This document shows positions 47,600 to 55,169 of a stretch of DNA of 64,000 bases, piece after piece (positions within the stretch are counted from its first letter, which is position 1; every line of letters starts with the position of its first letter). Origin of the DNA: Rhodocollybia butyracea (taxonomy: Eukaryota > Basidiomycota > Agaricomycetes > Agaricales > Omphalotaceae); assembly GCA_015501585.1 (NCBI GenBank), contig JADNRY010000025.1, positions 186,001 to 250,000 on the forward strand. The letters are read 5' to 3'. The notes beneath the pieces are model-generated. The model did not search any database. It worked only from the letters and a program-made list of their open reading frames with translations, and was not told where the DNA came from. A program made the position numbers and the translations under genes.

Positions 47600-48788
47600 T
47601 GATGAGTTGACACAGAAAGATTTACGAAGTATGTATTGTTGTCAATTTGCGAAACAGACTCACCAAGAACAGCAACAACCGGACCCTGGACGATAAGCAG
47701 GACCCTGATCCCGGTTTGCATCATAATGCATTTCGGTGCACTTCTGTGCATTTCCCCTCAGGACGGCCGGGAGGTGCTGAGATTCAGAGACTGTCTTGTA
47801 GCCTACCACTTCCATCCCACCCACCAGGACACCTTCACTTCTCGCTACGTTGGCAAAACGCACGCACATCAGCTGGGGCGGCGGCAAGTATCATGGCTTG
47901 CGACACTTATATCATCAGATGCCAGCAGATATCCCTCCAGATGGACCGCGGTTTATACTTGGGGTTCTTGATGTACCGTCTTGCGTGCAGAGGCATGCAA
48001 GGCCTTGCAGGGCTTGAGACTCTAGAGGAATCTTGTAAAAAAGTGACCAATGCCAGACGGGTTTGCTCATTTTTTTCCATTCCATTTCGGAGCGTTTCGA
48101 TTGCGTTACGGACTGGTGGTGGGCACTGGGGGTGGTGGTGGAGTAACCGAGATCGGTGCCGAGCTGCTGCACTGGTTCTCTTTTGCGTTTTGCAAATGCA
48201 TCTGCGCGCCTAGTTTTAGGTGTCGTTCGTGCCGTTGGCATCTAGAAATTCGACACAAGAGACGCGACATGTCTTTCACCGATGTCTCCAGGCTTGAGGA
48301 AGGACTCGAGTGGAAAGTCTCAATTATGTCTACTCGTTCCAGTAGCCAAGAACACGGTAGACTTTGGTATTGAATACTGAATGTGTGACTGAACTGAATG
48401 CGTGAAAATTTAAGATATAAGACTTTATTAGTTCAAGTTGAGGATGGACCAAGAGGAGAGTGGGGCTCAGCGTAAAAGGGCCCCATTGAGTGTGGCGCGC
48501 GGCGGACTCAAAACCCTTCCAACAAAATCGGGTGTCGTAAAAGCTTGGACTTCTTCCGTACTTGCGTTTTCACTCCCTTGAAAAGGTATACCAGATTTTT
48601 TTTCTAGACGTATGCCTAGAGTGTGGTAGAATAAGATGCGCAGCTGGCTGACTACTAGCTGACGACTGGCTGTATGATATCGTGGAAGCGCTACATCACT
48701 CGTTCACAGAAAGTCTCGTTTAAACATTATTGAAACCTCTCGAATACGAATATTCGTAATTCCATGATGATGATTGATTATCTAAAAT
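47600..48788. repeat. Duplicated non-coding block C
   Basis: Bases 47600-48560 align with 60060-61700, apart from an insertion in the latter. ORFs here are not supported as genes. The stretch ends at the left end of the transposon. Confidence 0.65.
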
Positions 48789-48851
48789 ATGGCAACAGAG
48801 AGAGGACAGCTCGTTTTTCAAACGCCGGCCATCACTGCCGATGCCAGGACC
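48789..48851 (+). repeat. Left terminal inverted repeat (63 bp perfect)
   Basis: Identical over 63 bp to the reverse complement of 54210-54272. Imperfect similarity extends further inward. Confidence 0.95.
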
Positions 48852-49312
48852 TTAAGTACCGATTGCGCCAGTGAAATCAGGTGTTCAGCGTAGCGTCCAG
48901 TCCACCGTGTCGCCTTCGTTGGTTTATTTGGTGGATATAATTTTACCATTGAACAGTATTGAGCATCCAGTTTACTTCCTAAATAAATTTATCCTGTACT
49001 AGATTTACATCTGAAATTGAATACTATAAGACGAACTCAGTCAGTGAAAGTATGTGGTATGCTCCTGTAGTAGTAGTAGTAGAAATACATTGTAAACTTT
49101 TGTATGTCCTCGTTGTCTACCGGTAGTGCTCCCCAGCTGTGATTAACGCTGGCCCTGGCTACTGCTACCTCGAGGGTGAGTGTTCGATCCTTGGTATGCC
49201 AGATGGTTTTTATTGCATCAATTACCTACTTGTTTGTTCGAGCTTTTTCATGCGCTCCAGCGCACGAGAAAGCTCAGACAAACATCTTCACTGATCCGAG
49301 AGGCTGTGCAAG

Positions 49313-49358
49313 TTTGTTTGGGCCACCGCAATCTTGTTATTGCGGTGGCCCAAACAAA
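49313..49358. repeat. Perfect 20-bp hairpin in transposon leader
   Basis: Left arm 49313-49332 (TTTGTTTGGGCCACCGCAAT) and right arm 49339-49358 are perfectly complementary, with a 6-nt loop CTTGTT. It lies 41 bp upstream of the transposase start. Confidence 0.9.
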
Positions 49359-49398
49359 GATTGAATGTCACTAGCGCCCAAAGTGTACCTTTTTGTGG

Positions 49399-51251
49399 AT
49401 GTCTAAACGGCCACGAAGTCCACAAGAAGGTGAGGCTTCTGCTGAACCGGAAGATAAAAAACCCAAAAAAAATCAACACCTACCTCTTCGTAAGTCACTG
49501 TTTCATGTCTAACAGGTGTATAACACAGGTCGGTGACATATAGTCTCTAGCTCGGCCTGCATCAGAGCTCTATCGCTGGATCCATTACTACTGGCACCTA
49601 GGATTCAGTGACAAGCAAATCGCAAGTCATGTTCTTGATCATTTTGATCGCGAAAAATTTGGCATCAGGTAAACCGTAAAGTTATATCACTTATGCTTTA
49701 CTTTGCCTAAAGTAGATGGAATTAGCTCCAAGTCTGTTCAATGGAAGCGCAAAGGGCTCAAGCTTCTGGGAACACGCCAGCAAAAGGCTTCATTTGCCAC
49801 CGTCATGCCCCACTATCTGGAGCTTCGTAAGCTCTATCCCAAAATGGGTGCTCGGACAATGGTAACAGTATTGAGGCAAGATTATAATCTCAAAGTGCCA
49901 GAGTATGTATTTGTAGAATCTTCTCAGGTTACTGCTCAATTTTATCTAACAACAGGAAACTTCTAAATGATTTCTTCAATACCGTTGAGCGTGATGAAGT
50001 CAAGCAGCGGAAATTCAAACGTTTCAAGCGCAAGCGCTTCTGGAGTGCTGGTATTATGGACGTACTTACTATGGATCAGCATGACAAGCTTAAGCGGTTT
50101 GGATTGTGGTTTCATCTTGGCTTTGATCCCTTTCCTGGTAGAATAGCATGGCTTCGTGTTTGGTGGTCCAATCGAAACCCTAAAGTCACATCAAAATATT
50201 TTCTGGACTCTTGTCGGGAGAGAGGCGGTACAGTAGTGACAGCATAATGTTCTGCACAGTTTCTAACTTATATGATAGGTGTTCCATTGGTTTCTCAGAG
50301 CGATCCTGGCTCTGAAAATTATGGCCCCGCCAATTGTCAGACAGCAATCCGGCATCGCTTGGACCCCAGTCTAATTGCAACCCGCCAGCACCGCTGGAAA
50401 AATCATAGTTAAAATGTGAAGCCTGAATCGGTGTGGTCACAAACTCGTCGTGGATTTTTCCCTGGGATTGAGAATGTTCTCGATCAGGGTGTTAATCGAG
50501 GCCTGTTTGCTCTTGAGAATCCCATGGAAAAGTCTGTATTTTCTTGACTGCACACACTCTCATTAATCTTTTATTTTGTAGGTTAACACTTCGTTACTTG
50601 GCTATTCCTCTTATTCAGGCCCTCTGCAACTCATATGCTTGTCGCTATAACTCAAGTCCTCGACGTCCAGACAAGCGAAAAGTTCTTCCACAGGGTATTC
50701 CTGATTTAATCTGTGCGAAGCCACACCTGTATAATACTGAAGATTTTACGGTGAGATTTTAATCATTACACATTTTGTAGGATGGGTTTTTATAGAAATT
50801 TCAGGTGAAAGTTCCTCCTGAACTTTTTGATGAAATGGAGGCCAAGTATGCACCTCCCGACGATCCATCTCTACAGCTTACCCCACCGGAGTTTCAAGAC
50901 ATCGCAGATAATATCTATCAGCAGCTAGGCAGCCCAATTGTCACACTTGACAACCTTTGGAGTGTTTACACTGATATGCTAGCAGGATTAAAGCAGTTGC
51001 GGGAGACGGAAGTGGAATCTTTTCAGACAGTCATGAATACTGCCGATGCCGCATTTGACTCTAATATGCCTTTGATTCCAAACCTGAAGGAGTTGCGTGA
51101 AGGACTTGAAATCATGCCTGGCGGACCTCATTATATGGGCGGCTTAAATGCAGGAAAGGGACCTGATGTTCTGGAACAGGAAGAAGATGACGAGGAAGAT
51201 TTGCGAGAGTATGCCGAATGGACCGAGCTTGAAAGTGAAGCCGAAGATTAG
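49399..51251 (+). pseudogene. Integrase-like DDE transposase, one premature stop
   Basis: ATG 49399 starts MSKRPRSPQEGEASAEPEDK with a basic patch KKPKK. After introns the frame gives ELYRWIHYYWHLGFSDKQIA, an HTH-like region (FGISSKSVQWKRKGL) and MPHYLELRKLYPKMGARTM. The catalytic core follows: TMDQHDKLKRFGLWFH (first Asp), AWLRVWWSNRNPKVTSKYFL, SQSDPGSENYG (second Asp) and KPESVWSQTRRGFFPG (probable Glu, about 40 residues after the second Asp). C-terminal exons end with an acidic tail (EQEEDDEEDLREY) at 51251. The layout resembles integrase-core proteins common in basidiomycete genomes. TAA at 50410-50412 interrupts the frame between the second Asp and the Glu; no intron can remove it. All six introns otherwise keep frame. 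Confidence 0.8.
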
Positions 51252-51304
51252 ATTAAAATATTTGTTATTCTCTAAAATTTGACTCCTTATTTTCTTACGC
51301 TCAA

Positions 51305-53908
51305 ATGGCTACTTCGACAAACCAGAATAACCTTGCAGGTATTCCGGGTCACCAACTCGAAGCAGAATACACAGAAGCTGCTCCAACAGACCTTATTTGC
51401 CAATGTCCCTCATGCAAAAAAGTTGCTCCTTCTCTCGAGTACATTGGTGGCCTTAATGGTGCAGGCCGTCACTTGTGCCCAGAATGTGCCAATTATTATC
51501 GCAATAAAGCTACGACTCGTCGTAGAAGTGGCATGTCTTTTATTTTATTGTCTGTGCTTTTGTTCTCATTATATAAAATTTATAGAAACTGCGCCTCCAA
51601 CTATACCAGCACCAATCCTGCACCCTGGCTTTGATGAGTCTGAGGATATTCGAAAAGAGAACGCACGTGCACAGCATGGAGGTCAATTTTATTTTTCCTT
51701 TGATAATAGCAGTATTTAACATAATGAGTTCAGAGCCAGGCAAAGAAATTCGGATCAGAACCTTATCTTCGTATGCTCCAGCTCCTATTCCTGTTAACAA
51801 TGCTCCTCCGCAATATGTTATCGATGGAGCGGGAAACCAGTTTTTAATTCCTGCAGCACCTGCATCAGTGGCACAGTCAGGATACATCTCTGTGGCTACT
51901 CGGCCACAAGTTGTATGCTCATCATCTTATGGGTTTCACCCCACATCGAATCACTCTGGTGTCCAGGTTGGCCTTCCAGGAGTATCACCATTGCTTCCAT
52001 CACCTATTTCTGCCCTGCCAGCATCTTCGAAAGCAGTTACACTCAATGGACAAGGGTACGGGTATACATCCAGTCACACGCAATACAACAGTCACCGTGT
52101 TCAGATGGCCGGCATGGCTTATGCCACAGATATCGAGAAGAAAGGTATCATTGAAGTACAGATAGTCGAATTTCCAGAGAGCAAAAGAAACTGGAAAACA
52201 GTAGGTGTGAGTACGAAATTTTTGAGCGGCAATGGAAATTCCACTAACGATGCATACCATAGGCCATTATGGTGGTCAAGTCGGGAGTTCCTGTTAATAT
52301 TGGTGCTCATGCACTGAAGACGTTTGCATTCTCTGTTGTACTACCGTTGTGGAATGAATGGTCGCATGGTTACCCCCTATCCATCGATGATCTCAGCTTA
52401 AAAGACAAAAATTTTGAAGAGATATCACCTCCTCTCAACAGTCCTGATGTTGATTGTATTCAAACTCACTTCTTCATTCCTCCCAAAAAGGCAAACGCGC
52501 CACCTACCCTGAAAAAGGATAAGGTCCTTGTCCTTCTCCACATTCCGAACAAACTCCTTGGTCAGGTTGAATTCGAAAAAATCAATGGGTCAGCAGAAAA
52601 TGAGCCCATGACTCAACCCATGACACCCCCAAAACTTATCACACCTTCATTAGGCATGCGGAGAGCCCATGAACCCTCTACTACTCCTCCGAGTATCAAG
52701 CATAAAAAATCACGGACTGAACCTGAGTCATCGGAGCTCATATACCATTCTCCCGACCGTAAACGGCTCGCCATGGCTCTGCGAGAGGAGAAGATCCCAG
52801 TTAGTAAGAATATTCCAATTTGTACGTGTTATTTTTCAAACAATTATATTTATCGTTACTAACAGAGCTACTTGTAGTGCATGAGTCTGCAATTCCAGTA
52901 CGAATTTGGCGTGGAAAAAATCTTCATCTCGACGAATTGATCTCGTTGGCCTCCCGCGGTGCAGATTGGAGCGAGTACTGTGATGAGGGACCGTCAAGCA
53001 CACTATGCGTTGACTTGAGACCGAAAAAGGCCTTGACGGGCGAATTCAAAATGACCAACTTGGGTCGAAGTCAACCGCCTGTGTTCGATGGCCCTGAAAT
53101 TGCCATTAAACAACTCTTTTTCACAAAAACGGTCTTCAAGTCGAAGCCGCATGAGGACCCCAGCGGTAGTAAAGATCGGGAAACCAAGGTTGAAAAGGCC
53201 ATCTATCCATATGACCCCAAAGTCCAACATCCCGCTCTTGTGATGGAGCTCAAGCTGACGCTGTGGGGACGGGCATTGCTCAACCTAGTCTATGCCTACA
53301 TCAAGTCTGTCAACCCCGAGGAGGACATCAGTAGATTCATCGAAGTCCCTCAGTTCCGTTTTACACAGGTTGCGCTAGCAGTCGAAATGCTTCCTTCTTC
53401 GGAGCCGGGAGCCAGGCCTAAAGTTTTTCTTTTGGAAGAAAATTTAGAGACAATGAAGCAGGGCCAATTTAGGAAGTATATGTCGAATATGCCTCACATT
53501 TTCTTGATTTTTGATGATAAAGAGAATGCTGCACGAGCAGACTTCCTCAGATTTGCCCAGCATGTAATGTACTGGAAGACTGGTAAATTAGCGTATGTTT
53601 CTGACTTCCAAGGTACGAGTCTATACAACATTCTCCATAAACACTATCTGATTAATGAACCCCTCCAGGAAACGACTCAGTGCTCACCGATTGCCAACTT
53701 ATGACTCACCGGTAATGTCCTTTGGAAGTTTATGCCTACACTTCGCTGTGCTCATCATGTTAACAGGCAGCTTGGCCGTGTCTTTGCTGAGGGAAATGTC
53801 CCGGAGGGATTCGAAGGCCTCGAGTCTCATCATGACTGCAACAACCGTTTCTGCGAGTTTTTCAACCTTCCTTCGATGGATGAGATTGAGCAGGCTGAAG
53901 TACAGTAA
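51305..53908 (+). CDS. Alpha-kinase family protein with N-terminal zinc-binding region (transposon cargo)
   Basis: Atypical alpha-kinases (eEF2K/myosin heavy-chain kinase family) are Ser/Thr kinases. ATG 51305 begins MATSTNQNNLAGIPGHQ. A four-cysteine zinc-binding motif follows (ICQCPSCKK and HLCPECANYY), then a long Pro/Ser-rich linker, and from about 52870 the catalytic region: RIWRGKNLHLDELISLA, GEFKMTNLG, IAIKQLFF (putative ATP-binding Lys), RADFLRFAQHVMYWKTGKLA, YVSDFQGNDSVLTDCQLMTH, VFAEGNVPEGFEG and HHDCNNRFCEFFNLP (zinc-binding His/Cys of the fold). The stop is at 53908. All seven introns splice in frame, one (51531-51585) with a GC donor. No lesion is seen, unlike the transposase 53 bp upstream. 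Whether it serves the element or the host is unknown. Confidence 0.82.
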
Positions 53909-54209
53909 TTCTTCTCAACAACAAAAGGTATTAAAGCAGTACAATACCCTCATTTTCCTTCTCTCAATCACATTATTTATGCGCTCGAGCAACACAGTAG
54001 CGTGGCTGTGAACATTGGAAGTAATGAATGCCAGCTCGCAACATAAGTGCACATATAGTATTCAACTTGATATGGCTCAATGGTACGGCGTACAAGACAA
54101 ATTTATATACTTAAAATAAATCACCAAAGGCGACGCGATGAGCAGAAATGTCGACGCTACCACTACGCCGAAGTGTGCACCTGATTTTAATGGCGCAACT
54201 GGTAATTGG

Positions 54210-54272
54210 GGTCCTGGCATCGGCAGTGATGGCCGGCGTTTGAAAAACGAGCTGTCCTCTCTCTGTTGCCAT
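54210..54272 (-). repeat. Right terminal inverted repeat (63 bp perfect)
   Basis: Identical over 63 bp to the reverse complement of 48789-48851. Confidence 0.95.
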
Positions 54273-54329
54273 ACTAAAATACATACCAGAAATACACATC
54301 AAAATACACACCAAAAATACAAAGATAAC

Positions 54330-55169
54330 TCATCCAACAACGCAACCTGCGTCAGGATTTGCAACAAAGTCTTCATCTTCGAAGCTGATTCTGGCACACC
54401 CATATTCATTATCCAGAACCATCGAATCGTCTGTCTCGTCATTGATCGCAGCGATATCCCCAACATAAAGGTGTTTCACTCCCAGCAAGTCGCTGAAGAC
54501 TGATGCTTGGTTGGAAATAGCGTCAGACATCAAAACACGGCTGTGTTTTGTGCCCGCCGTGATTGAGCCTTTAAACGAACGCGGAATTTTGACTGTTATA
54601 TCTCCCAAAAGGGAGGTAGAGTGCAAGTGCAAAGTAAAGGGCGGAGATGGACCTTCCCTGTGCTGCGAATGGAGTGATTGAGCCACGGCGAATTGATTTA
54701 GAAAGGAAGGTTCAGCTCACGATATGTACGCGAGTAGTCCAGCACGGGGATGATATATTCAGCAAGACTTTCTTTCGACTTCTGAGTATTGGTCTGTCCC
54801 AAAGATACAGCTCCGAAGTTACACGTCCGAATTCTGATTTAGCATAGAAGTTGCTGCGCGTTTCTTCTGTTTCTCCTTCAGGCAGAGGAGGGAGCCAAGC
54901 GCTGGGAATTTCCAGCGACGGGTCAAGGATATATGTTCCTTCAATAGCGTTGTTTTTTTGGGTGAATACTACAAAATTACATGGTTTGGCATTCGCTGGA
55001 AGCATGAAGGGTGCCTTGGATGACGAAGATCGGGAGTTGGTATATGGGGGAGGTGAAGTGGCATCCTGTTTGAAAAGTTGTACAAGATATCGAAGATGTA
55101 GTTGCTACAACATACCCGATCTGAAGGGAGAGGAGTTTCAGTCGATTTGTTCTCGGGTACTGGAATCAT
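54330..55169 (-). CDS. DUF7330-like hypothetical protein
   Basis: ATG 55169 gives MIPVPENKSTETPLPSDR, an intron of 50 nt, then DATSPPPYTNSRSSSSKAPF, SEFGRVTSELYLWDRPILR and a second intron of about 58 nt. HREGPSPPFTLHLHSTSLLG, DITVKIPRSFKGSITAG, LGVKHLYVGDI and NEYGCARISFEDED follow, to the stop at 54330. The repeated beta-strand pattern (polar/apolar alternation, IPRSFKG) resembles a basidiomycete family that I associate with DUF7330; that name is from memory. No membrane segment is seen. The frame is clean. The transposon right end lies 58 bp past its stop codon. Confidence 0.65.

Follow-up and report, generated by a model that had tools for sequence, protein, structure and literature searches.

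A TET-less IS3EU-type DNA transposon of Rhodocollybia butyracea with transposase and alpha-kinase genes on one strand

The 64,000-nucleotide stretch of the Rhodocollybia butyracea (Agaricales) genome analysed here, which as a whole we call the window (contig JADNRY010000025.1, positions 186,001 to 250,000 of the forward strand), contains a 5,486-bp DNA transposon (48788-54273) with two genes on the same strand, one for a transposase and one for an alpha-kinase (Table 1). The element is genuine and clearly delimited, and it represents a pairing with an alpha-kinase that has been noted in rusts, here without TET and with both genes on one strand. The explanation towards which we lean is a two-gene IS3EU-type transposon whose alpha-kinase belongs to the element as an accessory transposition protein and works for it. 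From the sequences compared, the kinase seems to be a functional component of the transposon and not something carried along by accident, and its role would probably lie in regulating transposition or in escaping silencing.

Table 1. Features of the transposon and its flanks (window coordinates).
Feature	Position	Strand	Remark
Left target-site duplication, CTAAAA	48782-48787	.	Single copy, as TCAAAA, at the empty site on C58
Left terminal inverted repeat, outer 64 bp perfect	48788-48851	+	96 nt at 93% overall
Perfect 20-bp inverted repeat with 6-nt loop, 5' region of the element	49313-49358	.	Similar sequence in many other contigs
DDE transposase gene, 7 modelled exons	49399-51251	+	
Transposase exons	49399-49489, 49551-49668, 49726-49902, 49956-50227, 50279-50531, 50582-50750, 50805-51251	+	
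In-frame TAA interrupting the transposase of the window copy	50410-50412	+	Annotated relatives, e.g. P0005, uninterrupted there
Spacer between the transposase and alpha-kinase genes, 53 nt	51252-51304	+	
Alpha-kinase gene, 7 exons, open frame, 756 aa	51305-53908	+	Equals P0001
Alpha-kinase exons	51305-51527, 51586-51681, 51734-52206, 52263-52821, 52878-53612, 53669-53711, 53767-53908	+	
CxxC-x20-CxxC, putative zinc-binding motif, kinase N terminus	51404-51487	+	
Right terminal inverted repeat, 64 bp perfect	54210-54273	-	
Right target-site duplication, CTAAAA	54274-54279	.	

The ends and the flanking duplication fit the IS3EU superfamily. IS3EU elements are described as having TA..TA ends and usually a 6-bp duplication (PMC10045372), and the TET-bearing families of rusts, in the available part of their description, as having TAYGG..CCRTA termini (PMC12730594); inverted repeats of >30 bp are stated for the same families. 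Here the termini read TATGG..CCATA, the perfect inverted repeats measure 64 bp and CTAAAA flanks the element at both ends. The initial annotation had reported perfect 63-bp terminal inverted repeats and an 8-bp near-duplicate flank; the repeats are indeed perfect but one base wider per end, and the flank is more aptly described as a 6-bp target duplication, CTAAAA, without mismatch. Within the element, bases ~512-571 have matches of 80-93% in many other contigs, which suggests that the element contains a small dispersed repeat. Bases 321-404 (window 49108-49191) match C884, C639 and C451 at 88%, parts of them recur in many more contigs, and the stretch resembles, read by eye, a tRNA-derived short repeat.

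An empty site was sought in the same genome with a query that joined the two element flanks and kept one CTAAAA. The element-free site C58:28565-29001 matches this full 448-nt query at 95% (426 of 448 columns identical; one 11-nt gap, away from the junction), and its junction is exact, with TCAAAA replacing CTAAAA. Two less similar sites (C1255 and C550:173411, 78-79%) likewise span the junction without the element. Since the same genome holds an insertion-free site at 95%, the kinase moved with the element, and the proposal of a DNA transposon enclosing an alpha-kinase gene is thereby borne out for an intact kinase. A bounded unit with an empty site is more than chance. The site on C58 also rules out a host gene caught between repeats. 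The right flank itself (window 54280-54499) resembles, at 78-88%, a tandem series at C550:173-183 kb and C1255, a likeness that reflects a gene or segment family repeated locally.

The plus-strand gene read earlier as an integrase-like DDE transposase, the type found in IS3EU, proved to be one. The Pfam rva_4 integrase core scores 25.9 bits against a cut-off of 26 (0.1 under), and the protein collection holds 123 homologues, many with PF24764; among the 120 listed, nearly all are Agaricomycetes by name. Residues D165, D224 and E265 (P0005 numbering) are invariant in 12 aligned relatives, a set that does not include the window copy, and presumably form the catalytic triad. The TAA of the window copy precedes the position of the last of these presumed triad residues. 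Because its transposase stops before the third catalytic residue, any further movement of the window copy should require the transposase of another copy, although it has moved in the recent past.

The second gene was likewise correctly taken for a multi-exon plus-strand alpha-kinase. Its spliced translation is identical, letter for letter, to the NCBI-annotated P0001 (BDP27DRAFT_1418217, 756 aa), and PF02816 (Alpha_kinase) scores 34.8 bits against a curated cut-off of 21.3. The alpha-kinase landmarks Lys, Glu, His, DxQG, LTDxQ and GN, which we take to make up the active site, are present. Residues K528, E637, H679, D693, Q695, G696, D703, G719, N720, H732, C734 and C739 are invariant in the kinases of the window, of Lentinula and of a second element family (family B, below). 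The Lentinula lateritia kinase (P0003) shares 56% identity with that of the window. Near the C terminus, where the zinc motif of the family is HxC-x3-C, the window and Lentinula kinases have HDCNNRFC (C-x4-C), longer by one residue than the HRCNKFC (C-x3-C) of the Arthromyces matolae protein P0116. The CxC/CxxC zinc motif mentioned in the initial annotation could be placed at the N terminus in the form given in Table 1, where it may bind zinc. A similar N-terminal CxxC motif with x24 spacing occurs in both examined family-B copies, and the window's pattern was not found in the examined stretches of C647, C712, C823 and C525; the CxxC pattern has five occurrences across the six frames of the whole window. 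A structure prediction of P0001 from four sequences (mean pLDDT 29) was set aside. Two protein searches with the kinase gave three proteins each, a number that does not show rarity, since only 7,995 candidates were scored.

Exon-wise searches of the genome, whose match lists are lower bounds, placed alpha-kinase matches on 13 contigs (C583, C850, C180, C712, C759, C459, C816, C1227, C823, C525, C647, C550 and C465) and matches to the transposase clade of the element on 12 (C550, C465, C647, C712, C459, C816, C927, C583, C727, C180, C525 and C823). Ten of the 13 kinase contigs also carry an element-clade transposase, with matches within ~6 kb, and a kinase was detected on 10 of the 12 transposase contigs. 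These counts rule out a simple duplicated host kinase. Among the kinase-only contigs, C759 holds a TIR-bounded family-B derivative whose transposase part is lost, C850 has kinase stretches that duplicate the C583 ones at 98-99%, and C1227 gave no sign of an element-clade transposase in the genome search. Conversely, C927 and C727 have a transposase-clade match without a detected kinase, as judged from the genome search lists only. Several of the ten linkages depend on transposase matches that are partial, namely those at C583, C180 (E-value 4.5e-5), C525 (3.8e-5) and C823 (3.3e-4); the ones at C823 and C525 are backed by the family profile at ~1e-14. There are two alpha-kinase matches each on C583 and C850 (L006, L007, L010 and L016), and their near-identical stretches adjoin an unrelated high-copy repeat (beside L010), possibly another mobile unit.

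The contrast set consisted of 98 PF24764 matches, which amount to 50 other rva_4 loci. A detected kinase is never closer than 10 kb to any of the 50 (the smallest distance, on C712, is 11.5 kb), and the kinase profile found nothing in the 30 of them that were examined over ~1.5 kb per side; this profile sees the window's branch only and misses the kinases of C583, C850, C180, C1227, C823 and C525. The genome searches also missed the window's own genes, PF02816 its kinase and PF24764 its transposase, because these are intron-split or diverged, and absence from the lists is therefore weak evidence. The viral contigs held no relative of the transposase or of the kinase.

Several element families share the pairing, in differing arrangements. 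The copies of family B (C459, C816 and C759) are 96-98% identical, and the family's kinase and transposase are divergently oriented. At C759 (31510-38332), where alone a full-length family-B left end was found, the kinase lies inside matching TATGG ends with a TATTGG duplication on both sides; no TATGG..CCATA pair was present in the examined stretches of C459, C647, C712, C823, C525, C180, C1227 and C583. Family B (L083, L082 and L011 on C759; L084, L081 and L080 on C816) also contains other open frames, which extend over several kilobases and gave no clear Pfam match; in one of them there is a chromodomain-like stretch below the cut-off. The two genes lie on the same strand in the window and in P0116, are divergent at C459, C816 and C647 and are convergent at C712. 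P0116, from a 7,354-bp contig of A. matolae, is a single, automatically predicted protein that combines an alpha-kinase domain (58.4 bits) with a transposase core (58% to the window's), in the gene order and strand of the window. Since the pairing is kept although the order of the genes has changed, it is probably the pair that is selected, and fixed synteny would not explain it. The initial annotation had called the kinase cargo; it does travel with the element, but the word understates a gene linked to one transposase clade across several families.

Kinase and transposase phylogenies, which had been proposed for comparison, were built with FastTree from five kinase-transposase pairs. Both genes place the window next to Arthromyces as its sister (support 0.99 and 0.85), and the remainder is poorly resolved. 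Of the two genes, the kinase changes more quickly (38% for the kinase vs 58% for the transposase between the window and P0116), and constraint on it may accordingly be weak.

One other long copy of the element exists in the genome, on C465, where it is split into three pieces that are 97-99% identical to the window element; inserts interrupt it, and its first 1,899 bases are missing. Over 657 of the 735 nt of kinase exon 5 and 39 of the 43 nt of exon 6, the alignment with the window shows 41 differences, of which 30 are C>T or G>A. Nine changes are silent and 32 are not (neutral expectation 11.9 and 29.1), so there is no silent excess, and four new stops have arisen; by this comparison the C465 kinase decays as a dead copy does. 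A 1.6-kb relative at C1:1030702-1032312 (L005 and L004) has inverted ends ~90% like the repeats of the window, with neither transposase nor kinase among its open frames, and is likely a non-autonomous relative. To the question raised earlier, whether full-length copies always contain both genes, the long copy answers that both are there, and the short relative has neither.

This neutral decay with its stop changes, the short relative that has neither gene, the varying order and orientation and the faster evolution of the kinase would suit a reading that we think rather unlikely, namely that a host alpha-kinase was picked up and is carried without benefit, the several families deriving from one old capture and subsequent drift. 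The lack of conserved order and orientation and the faster kinase change, together with C927 and C727, stand against an element-serving kinase, as do the zinc motif not found in the examined stretches of C647, C712, C823 and C525, the partial matches behind several linkages and the missing silent excess at C465. A passenger fits poorly, however, with a kinase frame that is open in the window copy while its transposase has a stop, with active-site residues that are invariant across the window family, Lentinula and family B, and with pairing on 10 of 13 kinase contigs. For an accessory protein of the element, which we prefer, the N-terminal zinc motif and the middle region would place the kinase on its substrate, most likely the transposase or transpososome, through which it might set the timing or dose of transposition, or a host chromatin or RNA-silencing factor.

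Among solved structures, a profile built from six relatives matches those of the TRPM7 kinase (1ia9), of eEF2 kinase and of myosin heavy chain kinase A. The likeness to the eEF2 and TRPM7 kinase domains could point to an enzyme that, like eEF2 kinase, acts on the translation or physiology of the host, with the result that cells bearing the element gain an advantage or exert less silencing on it; but the match is limited to the catalytic domain, and we hold this to be somewhat less likely even than a passenger. It is very improbable that transposase and kinase form one protein with the intervening stop spliced out, as two annotated fused gene models (P0002, of the C465 copy, and P0116) and the close spacing of the genes in the window element might suggest, for both models are automatic predictions, P0001 is annotated in the window copy as a kinase alone, and the genes are on opposite strands in family B, C647 and C712.

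The view stated in the initial annotation, that cut-and-paste elements normally carry only transposition genes, leaves out of account that alpha-kinases in TET-bearing IS3EU families have been published (Kojima 2025, PMC12730594), where the available part mentions the kinase in passing and leaves it undiscussed. The rust elements resemble ours in their IS3EU ends, 6-bp duplications and the union of transposase and alpha-kinase in one element, and in that partial account have a TET/JBP gene between oppositely facing transposase and alpha-kinase genes (PMC12730594), whereas the window element has no TET/JBP gene, both genes on one strand and an agaric host. A Pfam search of the element's two genes gave rva_4 and Alpha_kinase only, and PF12851 (TET/JBP) has four matches genome-wide, which all score below the cut-off and lie outside the 13 kinase contigs, C550 included, so the kinase-transposase pairing here is independent of TET. 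IS3EU/GingerRoot, as far as its account is available, shares the TA..TA ends, the 6-bp duplication and the integrase-like DDE transposase (PMC10045372), but the word 'kinase' occurs there 0 times. KDZ and other TET/JBP-carrying transposons are similar, in the part of PMC12730594 available, in bearing an enzyme gene on a fungal DNA transposon that is thought to be an anti-silencing aid, and differ in both enzyme and transposase. Outside subscription journals and Repbase, we found no further publication linking IS3EU transposons and alpha-kinases. New are the occurrence in Agaricomycetes of a form that lacks TET and has both genes on one strand, the empty site of this element and the tie of the alpha-kinases of one genome to one transposase clade.

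A marked expansion or enrichment of alpha-kinases has been reported for some basidiomycetes, including rusts (PMC4469406, PMC5295586), and one alpha-kinase is listed with the rust proteins under diversifying selection (PMC4150398). These numerous PF02816 genes are comparable to those described here but are treated, in the available parts of the three papers, as ordinary gene families with no transposon link. The wider interest lies in an alpha-kinase gene family tied to one transposase clade, as are most detected alpha-kinases of R. butyracea. It is conceivable, though we would not expect it, that the alpha-kinases of mushrooms, and perhaps the expanded ones of rusts, are largely a selfish family, a kinase dedicated to one IS3EU clade, with either the clade's own transposase or the silencing machinery of the host as its phosphorylation target. 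If so, these would be the first eukaryotic DNA transposons with their own kinase as part of the transposition apparatus. If the tie is general, counts of alpha-kinases would measure transposon load, not host signalling, and the puzzle of their expansion would become testable. With two genes and two ends, the element is a simple system in which to ask whether a transposon can carry a kinase that controls itself or its host.
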